From the NCBI RefSeq assembly GCF_000010305.1, contig NC_012489.1, positions 806,001 to 870,000 of the forward strand: DNA of 64,000 bases, read 5' to 3'. Position 1 is the first letter of the stretch. Each line of letters opens with the position of its first letter. The notes beneath the pieces are model-generated. The model did not search any database and had not been told where the DNA came from. It saw only the letters and a list, made by a program, of their open reading frames with translations. This DNA is from Gemmatimonas aurantiaca T-27 (lineage in GTDB: Bacteria > Gemmatimonadota > Gemmatimonadetes > Gemmatimonadales > Gemmatimonadaceae). This document shows positions 5,537 through 34,444 of the stretch, in pieces. The translations under genes and the position numbers were made by a program.

Positions 5537-8368
5537 ATGTCCCCAGCGTCGTACAGGCGCCTGCTGACCCCTGCCTCATGGGTCGCACGGGTGCTTGTCG
5601 CCGGAGCGCTCGTCGTGCTCCACAGCACCACCGCGATTGCGCAGAATACCATAACACTCGAAGGTGCGGTGAAAGGAGACGGCGCCCCGATTGTCGGCGC
5701 CCAGATCACCATCACCAATGTGGCGACCAATGAAGTCGCACGCGCGCTGACCCGCGCGACCGGCGACTTCCGTGTGCTGGGTCTGTATTCCGGCCAGTAC
5801 ACGGTCAATGTGCGTGCGATCGGCTACCGGCAGCGCACGGATACCGTGCAGTTGGTGATCGGTCAGCGTGCGCGTCTCGAGTTCGAACTCGAGAAGGGTG
5901 CGGCCGAACTCGAGGCGCAGACCGTCGTGGCGGAGCGCGTGAAGCAGGTGGAAGTCCAGCGCATGTCGGTGTCGGCGCCGGTCATGAAGGAAGAAATCGA
6001 AAATCTTCCCTTCAACTCGCGTGGCATCATGAACCTTGCCGGCATCGCGCCGGGCATCAAGACGTACTCGGCGCAGTCGGGCCGGACGTTGCCCTCGGGC
6101 GGCGCCGCGCCGGACCTTCGTTTCTTCAACGTCTACATGGACGGCGTCGAAATGAAGAGCCTCTACAACGGCAACATCGTCGGCCTTGGCCAGACGGGTT
6201 CGCCGCTGCCGCAGGAAGGTCTCGAACAGTTCCGCGTGTACCTCAATCCGTACGATGCGGAGTTCACGCGCGCGGGTTCGTACGTGATCAGCGCGGAAAG
6301 CCGTCGTGGCACGAACCAGTGGAAGGGTTCGGGCTTCGGCTTCCTGCAGAACAAGAACATGCTGGCACGCAATGCGTTCCAGACCAAGGTGCCGGACTAT
6401 GGCCGCACCCAGCTCGGTTTCAACATCGCCGGCCCGCTCAAGAAGGACAAACTGTTCATTGCCACGAGCTATGAACTCACGAGCACGGATTTTTATCTCG
6501 ACGTGAATCCGATCAGCGGTCCGTGGGATCAGTACCGCGGTTCGTTCCTGGCACCGAACAAGAACCACACGGGCTTCACGCGCCTCACCTACGTGCAGAG
6601 CCCGCGCATCACGTATGACTTCATGGGCTCGGCCCGCTACCTGCGCGGCGAAGGCAACTTCGGCGCCCGCACGGCGGCCATCAGCGGCATCTCGCAGACC
6701 TACGACATCTATACGGCGCAGCTCCGTCAGCGCTACCTGTCGCAGGGCGGCAACTTCGTGAACGAAGCCAGCCTGCAGTATGTGAGCTGGAGCCACAACG
6801 AAGCGCCGCTCACGCCGGGCCGTCAGATGACCTACCCGGGTGTCATCCTGGGGACGTCGGGCTTCCCGCTCATCCTCACGGAAAAGCACTTCCGCGCGGT
6901 GAACCGGTCCACGCTGAACATCGACAATGCCGGCGGATCGCACGTGGTCAAGTTCGGTGTCGAACTCAGCACGATCGACGCCATGCAGAACCAGCCGAAC
7001 AATGTGAACGGCACGTTCAACTTTGCGACCGACACCTCGACGATGCCGCTCTCGGCCTCGATCGCGGTGGGCTTCAACGACCGCACCGGCACGTCGGACG
7101 CGATCGCCAACGCCACGGGCTACACCACTGGTCTCTACATCAATGACGAGTGGCGCATGAAGCCCAACTTCACGCTGTCGCTCGGTCTGCGCTGGGATGC
7201 CGAGTTCAACACGATGAACAACGACTACGTCACGCCGTGGTCGAAGGACCCCGTGCTGACGGCGATCCCGTCGCTCAAGGACTACATCAACACCGGCAAC
7301 CGCAAGAACCAGCTCGGCAACATCTCGCCGCGTATCTCGTTCTCGTGGGATCCGTTCAAGGACAACCGCACGTTCGTGCGTGGCGGCTTCGGCATCATCT
7401 ACGACCGCGTCACGAGCTTCATGGGCTTCCAGGAACGCCGCAACTCCACGTGGCGCACCTACACGTTCGCCAATCCGGGCACCACGGATCCGGACGTGTT
7501 GCGTCAGCGCGTGATCGCCGGTGGCGTCACGGCCGCTGCGCCGATCCTGATGAACAACAACATGAAGACGCCGAACGCCAAGCAGATGTCCATCGGCTTC
7601 GGTCACCAGCTCACGAGCGAATTCGGCTTCAATGTCGACTATGTGCGCCAGCACATGGACAACCTGTACGTGCAGCGCAACCCGAACTACGTCGATCGTT
7701 CGGTGACGCCCAACGTGCGTAAGCTGACGCCGGCGTTCGGCGACATCCTGATCTGGGATGACATCGGTCAGTCGGACTATTCGTCGGTGCTGCTCCAGGC
7801 CACCTACCAGCGCAACAAGATGCGCTTCAACCTGGCCTACACGTTGGGTTGGTATCAGGGTGACTTCGATACGGCGGCGCTGCCGACGTACACGTACAAC
7901 TTCCTGTTCAACCGTCAGCGTACCACGGGCGACGAACGTCACCGCATCGTCCTGTCGGACATCGTGCCGTTGCCGCTTGGCTTCACGTTCTCGTCGGTGG
8001 CCACGATCGCCAGCCCGCGTCCGTTCCTCACGACCGATGGTCGTGATATCAACCTGAACAACGTGCTGGGTGATGACTATCCGGGCGGTACGCCGACGGC
8101 TACGGGCAACCGGACCACGATGCCGGCCAACTCGTGGAACAACTGGTACCGCACGGTGGATGTGCGTCTGACGCGCTCGCTGTTCACCTGGAACTCCACC
8201 AAGGTCAGCGCATCGGCTGAAGCGTTCAACGTGTTCAACTTCAACAACACGTTGTCGTTCGGTGGTACGCAGTTCCTGGCCAACGGCAATCCGGTTGCGT
8301 CCTTCGGTCGCCCGACGGCTGCCTACGGCGCCCGCATGGGCCAGGTCGGCATGCGCTTCGAGTTCTAA
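5537..8368 (+). CDS. TonB-dependent receptor, Oar-like, with carboxypeptidase-regulatory domain
   Basis: A 943-residue outer-membrane protein. The start at 5537 gives a signal peptide ending around TTAIAQ, followed by a carboxypeptidase-regulatory-like beta domain (about 37-120: GAPIVGAQITITN, GDFRVLGLYSGQYTVNVRAIGY). A plug domain follows, then a long series of amphipathic strands ending in the terminal aromatic MGQVGMRFEF typical of BAM-targeted barrels. It resembles the Myxococcus Oar/OmpA-related TonB receptors. Such proteins import large ligands such as peptides, glycans or siderophores, but the ligand is unknown. The frame is open far upstream (to 4493) but that part lies antisense over the glycosidase gene and is not used. 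A strong hairpin terminator follows at 8400. Confidence 0.9.
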   Translation: MSPASYRRLLTPASWVARVLVAGALVVLHSTTAIAQNTITLEGAVKGDGAPIVGAQITITNVATNEVARALTRATGDFRVLGLYSGQYTVNVRAIGYRQRTDTVQLVIGQRARLEFELEKGAAELEAQTVVAERVKQVEVQRMSVSAPVMKEEIENLPFNSRGIMNLAGIAPGIKTYSAQSGRTLPSGGAAPDLRFFNVYMDGVEMKSLYNGNIVGLGQTGSPLPQEGLEQFRVYLNPYDAEFTRAGSYVISAESRRGTNQWKGSGFGFLQNKNMLARNAFQTKVPDYGRTQLGFNIAGPLKKDKLFIATSYELTSTDFYLDVNPISGPWDQYRGSFLAPNKNHTGFTRLTYVQSPRITYDFMGSARYLRGEGNFGARTAAISGISQTYDIYTAQLRQRYLSQGGNFVNEASLQYVSWSHNEAPLTPGRQMTYPGVILGTSGFPLILTEKHFRAVNRSTLNIDNAGGSHVVKFGVELSTIDAMQNQPNNVNGTFNFATDTSTMPLSASIAVGFNDRTGTSDAIANATGYTTGLYINDEWRMKPNFTLSLGLRWDAEFNTMNNDYVTPWSKDPVLTAIPSLKDYINTGNRKNQLGNISPRISFSWDPFKDNRTFVRGGFGIIYDRVTSFMGFQERRNSTWRTYTFANPGTTDPDVLRQRVIAGGVTAAAPILMNNNMKTPNAKQMSIGFGHQLTSEFGFNVDYVRQHMDNLYVQRNPNYVDRSVTPNVRKLTPAFGDILIWDDIGQSDYSSVLLQATYQRNKMRFNLAYTLGWYQGDFDTAALPTYTYNFLFNRQRTTGDERHRIVLSDIVPLPLGFTFSSVATIASPRPFLTTDGRDINLNNVLGDDYPGGTPTATGNRTTMPANSWNNWYRTVDVRLTRSLFTWNSTKVSASAEAFNVFNFNNTLSFGGTQFLANGNPVASFGRPTAAYGARMGQVGMRFEF

Positions 8369-26992: not shown

Positions 26993-27892
26993 ATGACAAC
27001 GCCCGTTGATGTTTCCGACGTGGTGCGTTCCAAGTACGGCGAGGCGGCCCGCCGTGTACTGAATGCGGAAGGGGCGGCGGCCGAAAGCTGCTGCGGCCCG
27101 GTCAATTCCTGCTGTGGCGGCAGTGCCTTCAATGGCATGGTCGATCCGATCACCAGCAATCTCTATGTGAACGGCGAGAGCGACGTGCTGCCGTCCGCCG
27201 CGATGCTGGCCTCGCTCGGGTGCGGCAATCCCACCGCGCTGGCTCAGCTCAATCCGGGCGAAGTGGTCCTGGATCTGGGCTCTGGCGGCGGCATCGACGT
27301 GCTGCTTTCCGCGCGGCGTGTCGGACCCACGGGAAAGGCCTACGGGCTCGATATGACCGACGACATGCTCACGCTCGCTCGGAAGAATGCGACTGAAGCG
27401 GGCGTGACCAATGTCGAGTTTCTGAAGGGACAGATCGAACACATTCCTCTGCCCGATGCCTCAGTCGATGTCATCATCTCGAACTGTGTCATCAACCTCT
27501 CCGGTGACAAGCGCCGCGTGCTCGCGGAAGCGTTTCGGGTCCTCAAGCCTGGCGGCCGCTTCGCGATCAGCGATGTCGTTGTGCGGGGAGAGGTTCCCGA
27601 AGCCGTGCGCCGCAGCATGGAGCTGTGGGTGGGCTGTGTCGCCGGCGCGCTCGAGGAAACCCAGTTCAAGGCTCTGCTCACAGAGGTCGGGTTTGTTGGC
27701 CCCGACGTGGAACCCACGCGCATGTACAAGAGTGAAGATGCGCGGGTGTTCCTGAATGATGCCGGGATCGATGTCGATGCCAATCTCGATCAGATCGACG
27801 GCCGGTTCATGGCCGCGTTTGTTCGGGCGACCAAGCCCGTTTCGACATCACCGACATCAGGGGCCTGTTGTGGTCCCGACTGCTGCCCATAA
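26993..27892 (+). CDS. arsM: Arsenite methyltransferase ArsM
   Basis: A 299-residue SAM-dependent As(III) methyltransferase. The SAM motif is VVLDLGSGGGIDVLL (about 91-105). The three cysteines that bind As(III) in characterised ArsM proteins are present as Cys77 (SLGCGNP), Cys165 (SNCVINL) and Cys215 (WVGCVAGA). Extra Cys clusters occur at the N-terminus (SCCGPVNSCCGG) and the C-terminus (ACCGPDCCP), which may collect arsenite. It methylates As(III) to methylated arsenicals using reduced thiol. It follows arsR with its own ArsR-type operator at 26966. Confidence 0.93.
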   Translation: MTTPVDVSDVVRSKYGEAARRVLNAEGAAAESCCGPVNSCCGGSAFNGMVDPITSNLYVNGESDVLPSAAMLASLGCGNPTALAQLNPGEVVLDLGSGGGIDVLLSARRVGPTGKAYGLDMTDDMLTLARKNATEAGVTNVEFLKGQIEHIPLPDASVDVIISNCVINLSGDKRRVLAEAFRVLKPGGRFAISDVVVRGEVPEAVRRSMELWVGCVAGALEETQFKALLTEVGFVGPDVEPTRMYKSEDARVFLNDAGIDVDANLDQIDGRFMAAFVRATKPVSTSPTSGACCGPDCCP

Positions 27893-27903
27893 AGGATAGG
27901 CTC

Positions 27904-28659
27904 ATGCGCTACGCTCTCATCTCAGATATTCACGCCAACCTGCATGCACTGGATGCGGTGCTGGCGGACATTGATGCGCGAAAGGGCATCGCGGCGATCT
28001 ACCACCTGGGCGATCTCGTCGGATACTCAGCGTTCCCCAACGAAGTCGTTGACCGACTGCGTGCACGGGCGATCGCCGGCATCGCGGGCAACTACGACAG
28101 TACGGTTGGCACCGACTACAAGCATTGTGGCTGCAAGGTCGAAAGCCCAAGGCAGGAAGAGCTGGCGCATATCAGCTATGAATACACCAGGCAGGCCGTT
28201 TCTCTCGCGACAAAGCAGTATCTCGCCACGCTGCCATTCTCGATCGATCTGCGTCCGCTCGGCGGGCATCTGAAAGGCCCACGGCTCATGCTCGTCCATG
28301 GCACGCCGACTCTGAACACGCTCTACTGGACGGCCGACCGCTCGGATGAGTTCTGTCTGACGATGGCGAAGAATGCTGGCTTGAATGCCGGCGATATGGT
28401 CGCCTTCGGTCACACGCACAAGCCGTGGTACCGGGAAGTTGGCGGTGTGCATTTCGTCAACACGGGCAGCGTCGGCCGCCCCAAGGATGGAGATGCCCGT
28501 GCAGGCTACGTGATTGTCGATCTCGGTGGCACTGCTCCAGAGATTGAGTTTGTGCGCGTGCCCTACGACGTGGATGCGGCCGTTCAGGCCGTGGCTGCTG
28601 CTGGATTGCCAGAAGGGTTTGGAGATTTTCTGCGCAGTGGTGGTGCGCCTGCGCTATGA
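27904..28659 (+). CDS. Metallophosphoesterase in the ars operon
   Basis: A 251-residue calcineurin-like metallophosphoesterase with all metal-site blocks: ALISDIHANLHAL (Asp, His), HLGDLVGYSAFPNEVV (Asp), GIAGNYDST (Asn), LVHGTP (His) and FGHTHKPWYREV (His pair). Start 27904 is 11 bases after arsM and matches the family N-terminus. Such phosphatases are found in ars clusters of several phyla, but their substrate is not established; breakdown of arseno-sugar phosphates or a regulatory nucleotide are possibilities only. The stop overlaps the acr3 start (ATGA), so it is translated together with the arsenite pump. Confidence 0.85.
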   Translation: MRYALISDIHANLHALDAVLADIDARKGIAAIYHLGDLVGYSAFPNEVVDRLRARAIAGIAGNYDSTVGTDYKHCGCKVESPRQEELAHISYEYTRQAVSLATKQYLATLPFSIDLRPLGGHLKGPRLMLVHGTPTLNTLYWTADRSDEFCLTMAKNAGLNAGDMVAFGHTHKPWYREVGGVHFVNTGSVGRPKDGDARAGYVIVDLGGTAPEIEFVRVPYDVDAAVQAVAAAGLPEGFGDFLRSGGAPAL

Positions 28660-29807
28660 GCTCCTCGGTGTCTCCAGCTACTCCTGTCACGGTGTCGGTC
28701 ACTGGTCGATTGTCGACTATCGACCGCCTGCTGCCAGTGTGGATTCTCTTGGCGATGATCGCCGGGGTGCTGTTGGGGCGTCTCGTTCCCGATCTCGGCG
28801 CGATACTGGATCGCGTTCAGGTCGCAGGCGTATCGGTGCCGATTGCAATCGGCTTGTTGTGGATGATGTACCCGGTTCTGGCTAAGGTGCGATACGAAAC
28901 CATTGCCGATCATGTCCGCGACGGTCGGCTGCTGTGGACCTCTTTGCTGCTGAACTGGGTCGTGGGCCCGCTGCTCATGCTGGGGCTTGCCTGGCTGTTT
29001 CTCCCTGATCTTCCGGAGTATCGCAACGGCCTCGTTCTCATTGGGCTGGCGCGCTGTATCGCGATGGTGCTGATCTGGAACTCATTGGCGTGCGGCTCCG
29101 CGGAATTGGCGGCGGTGCTCGTAGCTCTCAACTCTGTCTTTCAGATCCTCACCTATTCTGTGCTGGGATGGCTCTTTCTCACCGTCATCCCGGGCTGGTT
29201 CGGTGGAACGACCGCCGTTCTTGATGTCACGATGGGGCCGATCGCGGTCAGCGTCCTCGTCTTTCTCGGAATTCCTCTGCTCGCGGGCTATCTCACACGT
29301 CGCCTGCTCGTGGCTCGTCGCGGCAACGGGTGGTATGAGAGCGTCTTCTTGCCCCGGATCGGACCGACTGCGCTACTGGGCCTGCTGTACACCATCGTGC
29401 TGATGTTTGCGATGCAGGGGCATCGTCTCGTTGAATTGCCGCTCGACGTGGTCCGTATTTCTGTCCCGCTGCTCGTGTACTTCCTGCTGATGTTCGGCTT
29501 CGGTTTCTGGTTTTCGCGCCGGATGGGTTTCGACTATGAGAGCACCACGGCTCTGGCCTTTACCGCGACCGGCAACAATTTCGAACTGGCGATTGCCGTA
29601 GCTGTGGCGACGTTCGGCATCGGATCGGGGGAAGCTCTGGCGGCCGTGGTAGGACCGTTGATCGAAGTGCCCGCGCTTATTGGTCTCGTGCATGTGGCGC
29701 TCTGGGCACGACAGCGCTTTTTCAGGCAAACGAGGATTCAGGACCCGCGCGGTGGCAGATCAGCTCACGGCGGAGAGGGGCGCCGTTCCCACGGCAGTGG
29801 TGCGTAA
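28656..29807 (+). CDS. acr3: ACR3 family arsenite efflux permease
   Basis: A 383-residue membrane protein of the ACR3 arsenite permease family with about ten hydrophobic helices. The conserved Cys of the transport path is in GLARCIAMVLIWNSLACG, and helix VVGPLIEVPALIGLVHVAL near the C-terminus is typical. It exports As(III) using the proton gradient. The last 20 or so residues (from about RIQDPRGG) are not ACR3 sequence: they are read out of frame across the start of a redoxin remnant in the overlapping frame, so the natural stop appears lost. The permease core ends before this and should be functional. Confidence 0.92.
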   Translation: MSSSVSPATPVTVSVTGRLSTIDRLLPVWILLAMIAGVLLGRLVPDLGAILDRVQVAGVSVPIAIGLLWMMYPVLAKVRYETIADHVRDGRLLWTSLLLNWVVGPLLMLGLAWLFLPDLPEYRNGLVLIGLARCIAMVLIWNSLACGSAELAAVLVALNSVFQILTYSVLGWLFLTVIPGWFGGTTAVLDVTMGPIAVSVLVFLGIPLLAGYLTRRLLVARRGNGWYESVFLPRIGPTALLGLLYTIVLMFAMQGHRLVELPLDVVRISVPLLVYFLLMFGFGFWFSRRMGFDYESTTALAFTATGNNFELAIAVAVATFGIGSGEALAAVVGPLIEVPALIGLVHVALWARQRFFRQTRIQDPRGGRSAHGGEGRRSHGSGA

Positions 29808-31072: not shown

Positions 31073-31936
31073 TTATTCGGCGCTCGATGGGGGCTGCTTC
31101 GCAGCCTTGCGCTCGGCTTTCTTGGCCTCCTTTTCTGCCTTCCGCCGCGCGGCGTCTTCCAGGATGGTGTCGATGCTGCTGAGCAGTCGCACGTACGCCT
31201 GCTCCAGCGCCTCTGGCGTATCGAGCTTCGCGACGGGGTCGTAGAAACGAGAGACCAGCGCGGCGTGCGACGAACCGAGCCACTTGAGTCCGCGCAGGAT
31301 CGAAGCGTACTGGTCCTTCGGGGCCGGACTGGTGTCCCCCTTGGGCCAGATCGGCTCGTGGTGAAAGACACGATTCCTGAACTGACGAAGGCCGTTGAAG
31401 GTCGTGCGAATCGAGGTCATGAGCTCGTCCGGAGCGCCCGGGAACACGGCCAGTTGAAGATCGGGCCACAGCACCACGCTGTCGGTGCCAGGCGCGTCGT
31501 AGGCCGTTTCTAGCATGCCCACCCAGAGCCCGAACGAGGTCGCGGCCACCAGATCATCGTGCGTACGGAGGGCGGTCTGTTTCGGATTCTTGCTCGAGAT
31601 CTTGTCGAGCGCCCGGTCGACCGTGGCTGTGCCGCCGCGATGGACTACGATGGCCGGGTTCCGCGTGAGCCAGGACGGGACCCGGCGATAGTCGACCGGA
31701 TCAGGCCCGACCACCACGGTCGGCCCGACGGCCCGGTCGATGCGCGTGCGAAGGTCGACCTCCAGCAGCTGGAGGGCCGGATACACGGCCTTGCAGAGGT
31801 CGATATTCCAGTAATACCGGGCCAGTGCGCGTCCGAGATCACCTTTCTCCTTGGCCAGATAGGGCCGCAGTCGCGGCTCCTCAATCAAGGCCTTGAGCTG
31901 TCCGAAGTAGGAGGATTGCGCGGCGGTCAGGGACAT
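31073..31936 (-). CDS. Abi family (AbiD/AbiF-like) HEPN-type protein
   Basis: A 287-residue protein of the Abi abortive-infection family. Residues 41-70 (YYWNIDLCKAVYPALQLLEV then DLRTRIDRAV) match the family's first helical core, and LVAATSFGLWVGML (129-142) the second. The motif FRNRVFHHEPIW (186-197) has Arg187 and His192 as the R-x4-H pair of HEPN RNases, next to the family's HHEP block. A Lys/Ala-rich tail (about 262-285) follows. Family members abort phage growth by RNA cleavage or translation arrest. Its upstream region (31945-32016) has two hairpins with an identical loop core, recalling the structured RNAs reported near abiF genes. It lies in the accessory island, 0.5 kb from an IS element. 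Confidence 0.8.
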   Translation of the reverse strand: MSLTAAQSSYFGQLKALIEEPRLRPYLAKEKGDLGRALARYYWNIDLCKAVYPALQLLEVDLRTRIDRAVGPTVVVGPDPVDYRRVPSWLTRNPAIVVHRGGTATVDRALDKISSKNPKQTALRTHDDLVAATSFGLWVGMLETAYDAPGTDSVVLWPDLQLAVFPGAPDELMTSIRTTFNGLRQFRNRVFHHEPIWPKGDTSPAPKDQYASILRGLKWLGSSHAALVSRFYDPVAKLDTPEALEQAYVRLLSSIDTILEDAARRKAEKEAKKAERKAAKQPPSSAE

Positions 31937-31944
31937 GGTATTCT

Positions 31945-32016
31945 TCTCGCACTGAGCCGATTCGTCGGCCCCCGATGGACCCGCCAGAGCTATTCGTAGC
32001 CCTGGCGGTTTTTTTT
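31945..32016. ncRNA. Candidate structured RNA / leader next to the abi gene
   Basis: Two hairpins share the loop-and-closing-pair core ACGAAT (minus strand). The first is GCCGA-CGAA-TCGGC at 31956-31969. The second is a long stem, CCGCCAG with CTGGCGG (31981-31987 and 32002-32008) and inner GCTA/TAGC around CGAA, at 31981-32008. On the plus strand the loops are TTCG and the second stem is followed by eight T (32009-32016), a textbook terminator. So either a plus-strand RNA antisense to the abi start ends here, or a minus-strand leader RNA precedes abi. Direction is unresolved. A conserved abiF RNA motif is known near such genes; whether this is one needs a covariance search. Confidence 0.5.
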
Positions 32017-32431: not shown

Positions 32432-32500
32432 GGTAATCCCCCCGGAAATTAGGGGTCGTCAATAGTGGAATTTTCTCGTACCGTTTTCGAGGAGGATTCC

Positions 32501-32767
32501 ATGAAGAAGTCACGATTTACGGACAGCCAGATCATCGCGGTCTTGAAGGAGGCGGAGCTCGGGACACCGGTGCCGGAGCTCTGCCGATCGCACAGCATCA
32601 GCTCGGCGACGTTCAATAAATGGCGCGCCAAATTCGGGGGCATGGACGTGTCCATGGTCACGCGGATGAAAGAGCTGGAGGAAGAGAATCGGCGACGCAA
32701 GAAGATGTATGCCGAGGCGCAGCTCAGCACCGATCTCCTGAAGGAAGCCCTCGCAAAAAAATGGTGA
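32501..32767 (+). CDS. IS3-family transposase OrfA
   Basis: An 88-residue helix-turn-helix protein starting at ATG 32501 behind an ideal ribosome site GGAGGA (32491-32496). It has the IS3 OrfA layout: DNA-binding HTH ([20 protein letters not shown] with [20 protein letters not shown]), then a leucine-zipper-like coiled coil ([20 protein letters not shown]). Seven A residues at 32755-32761 just before its stop form an A-AAA-AAA slippery site for -1 frameshifting into OrfB. Alone it binds the IS ends and limits transposition. Confidence 0.9.
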
Positions 32768-33588
32768 GGCCATCGCAACGTCGCGCGATGGCCCACCACG
32801 CCGTGAATGCGCAGCGCACCACCATCCGCCACGCGTGCGCGACGTTCGCGCTCAGCGAGACGTGCTATCGGTATCAGCGCAAACACGCCGACGAGAATGC
32901 CGTGATCGCCGACTGGCTGGTGCGGCTTACGACGGCGTATCGCACGTGGGGCTTCGGCTTGTGCTTCTTGCATCTGCGCAACGTGCGAGGGTTCACCTGG
33001 AACCACAAACGCGTGTATCGCATCTATCGTTCACTCGAACTGAACCTCCGCATCAGCCCGCGGAAGCGGCTCATGCGCGCCACGCCGGCACCTTTGGCGG
33101 TGCCTGACGCGATCAATCAGACGTGGTCGATGGATTTCATGCACGACCAACTCCGCGATGGACGCACGTTTCGTCTCTTCAACGTGATCGACGACTTCAA
33201 TCGCGAAGGCCTCCTGATCGAGGCCGATCTGTCGCTTCCCGCGGAACGCGTCGTGCGAGCGCTCAATCAGCTCATCACGTGGCGTGGACAGCCGCAACGT
33301 ATTCGCTGTGACAACGGCCCCGAGTACATCGGGCACGTCATGCACGCGTGGGCCAAGCAACGCCACATCCAGCTCGATTTCATTCAGCCTGGGAAGCCCC
33401 AACAGAACGCGTACGTCGAACGCTACAATCGCACGGTACGGCACGACTGGCTATCGCAGTGGCTCTTCGACAGCATCGCCGACGTGCAGGAATCCGCGAC
33501 ACGCTGGCTCTGGACATACAACAACGATCGACCGAATATGGCCCTGGGTGGCATCACCCCGAGCATGAAACTCACACGCGTAGCCTAG
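32761..33588 (+). CDS. IS3-family transposase OrfB (DDE integrase)
   Basis: The catalytic part, 275 residues if counted from ATG 32761, lies in the -1 frame relative to OrfA and would normally be made as an OrfAB fusion by slippage on the seven-A run. The rve integrase core has Asp125 (TWSMDFMHD), Asp184 ([10 protein letters not shown]) and Glu220 ([10 protein letters not shown]), with exactly 35 residues between the last two as in IS3 enzymes. The N-terminal HTH-like region has [12 protein letters not shown] and [11 protein letters not shown]. No internal stop is seen, so the element looks intact. Confidence 0.9.
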
Positions 33589-33770: not shown

Positions 33771-33786
33771 CTTCTATTTCTCACAG

Positions 33787-33860
33787 TCGGGGCGACTGGA
33801 TTTGAACCAGCGACCTCCTGCTCCCGAAGCAGGCGCTCTACCGGGCTAAGCTACGCCCCG
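33787..33860 (-). tRNA. tRNA-Pro(CGG)
   Basis: Complete cloverleaf: acceptor CGGGGCG/CGCCCCG with discriminator A, anticodon arm CCTGC-TTCGGGA-GCAGG with anticodon CGG, and T-arm loop TTCAAAT. The 3' CCA is not encoded. Last gene of the minus-strand tRNA cluster. Confidence 0.96.
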
Positions 33861-33894
33861 TGCGATTCCGGTTCCCATCGATCCGCTCCCACAA

Positions 33895-33968
33895 CGCGCC
33901 TGGAAGGACTCGAACCTCCAACCTTCTGATCCGTAGTCAGATGCTCTATCCAATTGAGCTACAGGCGC
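33895..33968 (-). tRNA. tRNA-Arg(ACG)
   Basis: Acceptor GCGCCTG/CAGGCGC with discriminator G, and anticodon arm TCTGA-CTACGGA-TCAGA. Anticodon ACG needs A34 to inosine editing (TadA) to read all CGN-type codons it serves. T-loop TTCGAGT. CCA not encoded. Confidence 0.96.
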
Positions 33969-34084
33969 AGAAAACTACCGTTCCGGAACCGCACCCCTCG
34001 CCTTTCGGTGAAGGTCCAGCAACCTAGTAACTCCCGGTGGCGCTCGCTACTGGCCACACCACCAACAATCACCAGGGTCCAACA

Positions 34085-34158
34085 TGGGTCGTACAAGACT
34101 CGAACTTGTGACCTCCACGATGTCAACGTGGCGCTCTAACCAACTGAGCTAACGACCC
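34085..34158 (-). tRNA. tRNA-Val(GAC)
   Basis: Acceptor GGGTCGT/ACGACCC with discriminator A, anticodon arm CCACG-TTGACAT-CGTGG giving anticodon GAC, T-loop TTCGAGT. CCA not encoded. Third gene of the cluster. Confidence 0.96.
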
Positions 34159-34210
34159 GGACATCGAACAACACCTACCCGGCTTGGAACCGGTCCTGCA
34201 CACCAGCAAA

Positions 34211-34283
34211 AGCGGGAAACGGGACTCGAACCCGCGACCCCAACCTTGGCAAGGTTGTGCTCTACCAACTGAGCTATTCCCGC
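34211..34283 (-). tRNA. tRNA-Gly(GCC)
   Basis: Acceptor GCGGGAA/TTCCCGC with discriminator T, anticodon arm CAACC-TTGCCAA-GGTTG giving anticodon GCC, T-loop TTCGAGT. CCA not encoded. Second gene of the cluster. Confidence 0.96.
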
Positions 34284-34371
34284 AACACACCCCAACCGGT
34301 CACCAGCCCCGATCAGAGCTTCCGTACGGCACACGACCACCCTTGCAGATGGCCAACGCACCGCCCCGGGA

Positions 34372-34444
<73 letters not shown>

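Follow-up and report, generated by a model that had tools for sequence, protein, structure and literature searches.

A compact module, in which a HEPN Abi gene is accompanied by a conserved structured RNA element, is present in the 64-kb stretch of DNA analyzed here (hereafter, the window). On balance, we favor the reading, drawn from comparative sequence analysis, that this RNA is an antitoxin for the HEPN RNase, as in AbiF/AbiFr, but that its gene is inverted and independently promoted. An original prediction, made from the letters of the window, had proposed a compact RNA-controlled anti-phage module; the pairing of a HEPN Abi protein with a conserved structured RNA is supported and is consistent with RNA control, and the idea of an RNA-controlled Abi module gains support. 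Of wider interest is a divergent, uncatalogued RNA as probable partner of the PD-T4-5 family.

The abi gene and its HEPN protein

The abi gene (31073–31936, minus strand; stop codon at 31073–31075, protein at 31076–31936) encodes an AbiF-like/PD-T4-5 HEPN protein of 287 aa. The catalytic motif R-[NHD]-xxx-H is present as R187-N188-RVF-H192, with its codons at 31361–31378 (minus strand), which confirms the R-x4-H motif that had been noted at Arg187 and His192. The RNRVFH sequence is conserved in an alignment of 64 homologues, where R187 is invariant and N188, R189, H192 and H193 are each found in at least 90%.

The original prediction had also called the protein a member of the Abi family. Since its score for Pfam Abi_2 (17.4 bits) lies under the gathering score (25.6), this label is retained on the strength of a PD-T4-5 match and of the fold. 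Abi_2 was matched by 37 of the 64 homologues at E ≤ 0.001, and the PD-T4-5 profile by all 64. The best defence-library match of the window protein is to PADLOC PD-T4-5 (E 2.5e-21); it is partial, with 74 bits over positions 35–210 of 309, against a profile given without a curated cut-off, while the full-length relatives L083 and L089 reach 407–453 bits with the same profile.

For an AlphaFold2 model of the window protein (pLDDT 91.6), the PDB holds a single clear relative: the PbAbiF dimer with its ncRNA, 8vz6 (Foldseek probability 0.99, E 0.08). Comparison of the model with 8vz6 by VIA gave Z 11.4 and rmsd 3.9 for 217 residues, with the next PDB entry at Z 5.3; entries ranked under 8vz6 (Z ≤ 5.3) were left out of use. 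A sequence search against solved structures gave no PDB match for the window protein, the kinship with PbAbiF being visible by fold alone. As modeled, the protein is of the AbiF-type HEPN fold and is predicted to be a relative of AbiF, the proposed ancestor of CRISPR Cas13.

As to its surroundings, the abi module is placed between two other groups of genes. At 26993–29807, genes for an ArsM-like methyltransferase, a calcineurin-like phosphoesterase and an SBF/ACR3-like transporter form what looks like an arsenic-resistance cluster; on the other side is an IS3-type insertion sequence, with a transposase pair at 32465–33588, followed at 33786–34444 by five tRNA genes (Pro, Arg, Val, Gly and Ala; minus strand). 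No attachment-site repeats flanking an island were found beyond tRNA similarity.

A small RNA element beside the abi start

Two hairpins lie beside the start of abi when the plus strand is read: hairpin 1 (GCCGA-UUCG-UCGGC, 31956–31969) and hairpin 2 (CCGCCAG-A-GCUA-UUCG-UAGC-C-CUGGCGG, 31981–32008), the latter being the stem of a rho-independent terminator that is completed by a tract of eight T (32009–32016). The hairpins have the UUCG loop and its closing pair in common, their apex AUUCGU on the plus strand being ACGAAT on the minus strand. Both the shared ACGAAT core and the eight T of the plus strand had been pointed out before, and we find them as described. The window has a single pair of tetraloop hairpins within 60 nt that have loop and closing pair in common, namely this one, compared with a mean of 0.05 per Markov-random sequence of 64 kb. 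A simple terminator scan did not report the hairpin with the T8 tract, probably because the scan does not allow for the 1x1 mismatch in the hairpin 2 stem.

The closest homologue of the window protein, encoded by locus L002 (= L033), has 63% amino acid identity and is the sole one this close in the genomes searched; a genome-wide scan for further close homologues found none besides it. From CUGAGCCGAUUCG to CUGGCGG, 52 of 57 alignment columns upstream of the two genes are identical (BLAST: 91%, E 5.7e-18). By comparison, only 40% of the fourfold sites of same-amino-acid codons of abi are identical between the two, and beyond the T run the sequences do not align, which argues that the element is under selection. 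L002 keeps both hairpins, and its T run consists of six T. RNA of the window type is known from two genomes only: a search for more in 395 Gemmatimonadota genomes gave G155 alone, and none was found in viral contigs.

Based on the conservation in L002, and on position and strand as in the distant homologues described below, the putative small RNA would span about 66 nt (31951–32016, plus strand, with inferred ends; ACUGAGCCGAUUCGUCGGCCCCCGAUGGACCCGCCAGAGCUAUUCGUAGCCCUGGCGGUUUUUUUU). An antisense RNA crossing the abi start codon had been suggested; the RNA does appear to be antisense, but its likely 5' end lies about 15 nt upstream of abi, and it is the promoter that overlaps the start.

The known abiF RNA motif, which had been cited for such genes, does not describe this region: RF03085 matched it on neither strand at E ≤ 10. 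The motif also gave no match in 101 Gemmatimonadota genomes, where control sequences likewise gave none; in phage phiC2 it was found, in the same orientation as abi. No credible Rfam match was obtained near abi in the window, in the homologues or in PD-T4-5-like loci. NsiR1 was rejected as a candidate for the window RNA (26 bits versus a gathering score of 39), as the terminator shape accounts for the match, and a REP-like repeat was ruled out because the element is single-copy in the genome.

The element might be no more than a palindrome and transcription terminator next to abi, with no RNA gene of its own function. The hairpin followed by T8 does have a typical terminator shape, which the weak NsiR1 match mirrors; however, the conservation in L002 takes in the entire 57-nt element, including hairpin 1, and not the flanks, and homologues hold conserved, covarying structures at this place, with promoters of their own. 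We therefore regard this explanation as very improbable.

RNA classes of distant homologues and the strand of the RNA

A set of about 70 distant loci, mostly with 25–36% protein identity, was drawn from Legionella, Chlorobia, Deltaproteobacteria, Cyanobacteria, Chloroflexi, Gammaproteobacteria and Gemmatimonadota. In most of these loci, a structured element directly adjoins the abi start codon. R1, the largest RNA class, shows two-sided changes in 11 of 16 pairs and a covariation score of 0.419, versus 0.171 in shuffles (reached in 0 of 500) and at most 0.133 when the alignment was slid. Applied to these loci, the R1 covariance model gave 42 matches at E ≤ 10, some of them in loci outside the training set; with few exceptions, the matches adjoin abi and are antisense to it. 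A search of whole genomes or records, 23 in number, gave 13 matches, one per genome and all beside abi. Some of the abi-linked matches come from the training set, and the absence of matches elsewhere is the informative part. The R1 pattern was not found in viral contigs, and the window RNA, at 8.2 bits, does not match the R1 model.

Separate classes are R2 (Gemmatimonadota, two hairpins) and an enterobacterial, a cyanobacterial and a Legionella class. RNA class tracks protein clade (10 changes versus 34 when shuffled), and in the tree a long stem (1.79) carries the window together with L002, in a part that also holds R1. Furthermore, upstream of abi in the four full-length PD-T4-5 relatives L083, L089, L068 and L061 lies a conserved divergent RNA, about 110 nt long, that ends in a GC hairpin in all four, with near-consensus sigma70 promoters for L083 and L089; no near match to the L089-type gene was found in E. 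coli genomes. Structural conservation near homologous abi genes is thus found in the form of clade-specific RNA families and not as one family. Judged from these loci, a divergent small RNA appears to accompany the PD-T4-5 family across many phyla, as clade-specific families with covariation, promoter geometry and terminators, none of which matches Rfam.

Three further observations concern R1 and R1-like letters. Another RNA class, in viral contigs (L143–L147, L150 and L151), lies about 20–110 nt upstream of abi, with a terminator on the abi-opposite strand; it has the R1-like letters UUCGUCACUG...CCGGACUG in reverse orientation and no good promoter. L062 holds a second R1-class copy (5910–5966, minus strand) downstream of abi and near the contig end, which perhaps serves a second, cut-off abi gene. 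A Pseudomonas aeruginosa plasmid (L154) has the R1-like letters GUCCUCUCCC...GGUGAUGA upstream of, and opposite to, a gene at 1195 that is abi-like and annotated as a hypothetical protein; a DUF6283 gene follows.

Some RNA genes have no abi gene alongside. In 198 genomes of the class, the R2 model gave 25 matches, 16 of which coincide with the places of abi homologues. Seven strong matches (93–122 bits) have no detectable abi gene beside them, and two weak ones (41 and 47 bits) are doubtful. The strong ones, all in Gemmatimonadota (L158, L159, L160, L161, L162/L163 and L164), are candidate solitary RNA antitoxins, as a trans-acting RNA antitoxin would allow an RNA gene to be kept without its toxin; these orphans could also belong to an unrecognized partner. 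Several orphan R2 RNAs were recognized by eye to be near type II toxin-antitoxin-like genes.

The orientation of the RNA had been called ambiguous, and for the window taken alone this holds; it is the homologues that place the RNA opposite abi. Compared with shuffles, the minus strand of the window folds with z -4.3 and the plus strand with z -1.6, so that folding energy taken alone favors the minus strand. On the plus strand, an alternative stem competes with hairpin 1, more weakly in L002 than in the window. Besides this fold, the same-strand arrangement in C. difficile and the reversed R1-like letters of the phage class L143–L147 would suit a functional minus-strand RNA co-transcribed with abi, either as a structured leader or as a same-strand antitoxin like that of AbiF-RCd22.

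Promoters, T runs, wobble pairs and the sequences upstream of orphan RNAs, however, all favor the plus strand. The putative promoter of the window RNA consists of a -35 element TTGCGC inside the abi coding sequence (31916–31921, plus strand) and, after N17, a -10 element TATTCT beside the abi start codon (31939–31944, plus strand); it is weak (score 6.7, p 0.038) and ends 6 nt before the RNA. L002 has TTGCGT-N17-TACAGT at the same place (p 0.046), with the same geometry and again 6 nt before the RNA. No sense promoter was found upstream in the window (score 1.0, p 0.55), which also speaks against a minus-strand RNA. Promoters were compared over 32 loci, both ends being given the same search space. 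On the strand opposite abi, 75% of the loci had a sigma70-like promoter with p ≤ 0.05, versus 12.5% on the sense side (median p 0.52), which is background. The -10 of the abi-opposite promoters usually ends 6–7 nt before the RNA, and versions with TTGACA-N17/18 are found in unrelated lineages.

Of 23 R1 RNAs, 16 have a T run after the stem when the abi-opposite strand is read, and none has one on the other side. Among pairs common to the folds of both strands, G.U (15) versus A.C (5) also favors the abi-opposite strand. The consensus fold of the Gemmatimonadota set reaches -41.7 kcal/mol on the abi-opposite strand versus -28.4 on the other, while the two strands of R1 fold equally well. Orphan RNAs L158, L160 and L161 have TTGCGY, 17 nt and GATACT-like letters upstream, and L162 keeps TTGCGC, while L159 and L164 have no such upstream sequence. 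In their -35, the window and L002 conform to the TTGCGY of the other Gemmatimonadota RNA genes, despite a lack of sequence kinship between the RNAs themselves.

Because these four lines of evidence agree, the window RNA is most likely encoded on the plus strand, opposite abi. A functional minus-strand RNA with an A-run leader was set aside on the same evidence, and we consider the minus-strand reading as a whole improbable. As a separate observation, TTGCGY 17 nt before a GATACT- or TATTCT-like -10 recurs at L003–L029, at L158–L162 and at 31916–31944 of the window, and is perhaps a Gemmatimonadota promoter variant.

Proposed mechanism and comparison with known systems

In the AbiF family, an adjacent RNA binds and neutralizes the toxin (PMC12373285; PMC12737573). 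In C. difficile AbiF-RCd22, the RNA lies upstream of the toxin gene on the same strand and carries two copies of a motif, and the PbAbiF dimer binds its RNA in two copies (PMC12373285). With these precedents, the window would hold a two-gene module of an AbiF/PD-T4-5-type HEPN ribonuclease toxin (minus strand) and a divergent RNA of about 66 nt (plus strand), whose promoter would lie within and at the toxin start and for which hairpin 2 and U8 would serve as its own terminator. The RNA, presumably made constitutively, would bind the HEPN dimer with one AUUCGU hairpin per protomer and block the RNase, as a type III-like antitoxin. By analogy with the two motif copies of RCd22 and the two RNAs bound by the PbAbiF dimer, one hairpin per protomer is a reasonable model. 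Phage infection might then lower the ratio of RNA to protein, or otherwise free the protein, which would cleave RNA and stop the cell, resulting in abortive infection.

As a secondary effect, the RNA may damp abi as a cis-antisense RNA, because an abi transcript started upstream would carry its complement in the leader. It is conceivable that this is its whole function, the plus-strand RNA blocking translation or stability of the abi mRNA in a type I-like manner without binding the protein. The RNA lies exactly opposite the abi leader, and an abi transcript from upstream of 32016 would contain its full complement, near the ribosome-binding region. In relatives, however, stems and unpaired motifs are strongly conserved, with covariation, RNA genes are kept without a nearby abi gene, and for AbiF, a relative by structure, direct binding by its RNA is known (PMC12373285). 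We thus consider a purely antisense function unlikely, and the antitoxin reading remains the one that we prefer.

Somewhat more tentatively, and with nearly even chances in our estimation, the PD-T4-5/Abi_2 family may in its entirety, over many phyla, consist of RNA-neutralized HEPN toxins with an inverted RNA gene, from which a divergent, self-terminating RNA is transcribed with a promoter that overlaps the start of the toxin. This RNA would diversify with the toxin clade, solitary RNAs would provide immunity against incoming toxin modules, and the family would form a sister branch to the lineage from AbiF to Cas13, set apart by its RNA architecture. With AbiF proposed as the ancestor of Cas13, such a sister family with its inverted, clade-specific RNAs would offer a second data set on the co-evolution of HEPN toxins and RNAs. 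A conserved divergent RNA would give PD-T4-5 a switch and extend RNA neutralization beyond the AbiF RNA of Rfam, and the RNA genes without a toxin are candidates for RNA-based anti-addiction.

PD-T4-5 itself is an abortive-infection gene from an E. coli plasmid, called 'a distant relative of AbiF/D' in the consulted part of its description, which mentions no RNA partner there (PMC9519451). In the open literature consulted, no divergent RNA partner of this family is described. PD-T4-5 is the best defence-library match of the window protein, which covers only part of the profile; the full-length relatives L083, L089, L068 and L061 also have a conserved divergent RNA.

With AbiF-AbiFr and AbiF-RCd22, the window module has in common the HEPN dimer fold with RNxxxH and a short structured RNA adjoining the toxin gene, with a terminator at the RNA 3' end, and with AbiF-RCd22 also a hairpin motif that occurs twice in one RNA. 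It differs in that the RNA gene is probably inverted, with its own promoter overlapping the toxin start, in that neither sequence nor structure of the RNA matches RF03085, and in that the protein matches by fold, without a PDB sequence match. Type I toxin-antitoxin systems are similar to the window module in having a short, stable RNA with its own promoter and terminator beside the toxin gene, with antisense overlap possible. Their toxins are for the most part small membrane peptides; here, in contrast, the toxin is a predicted HEPN RNase, and RNA genes related to its partner are found without a toxin gene.
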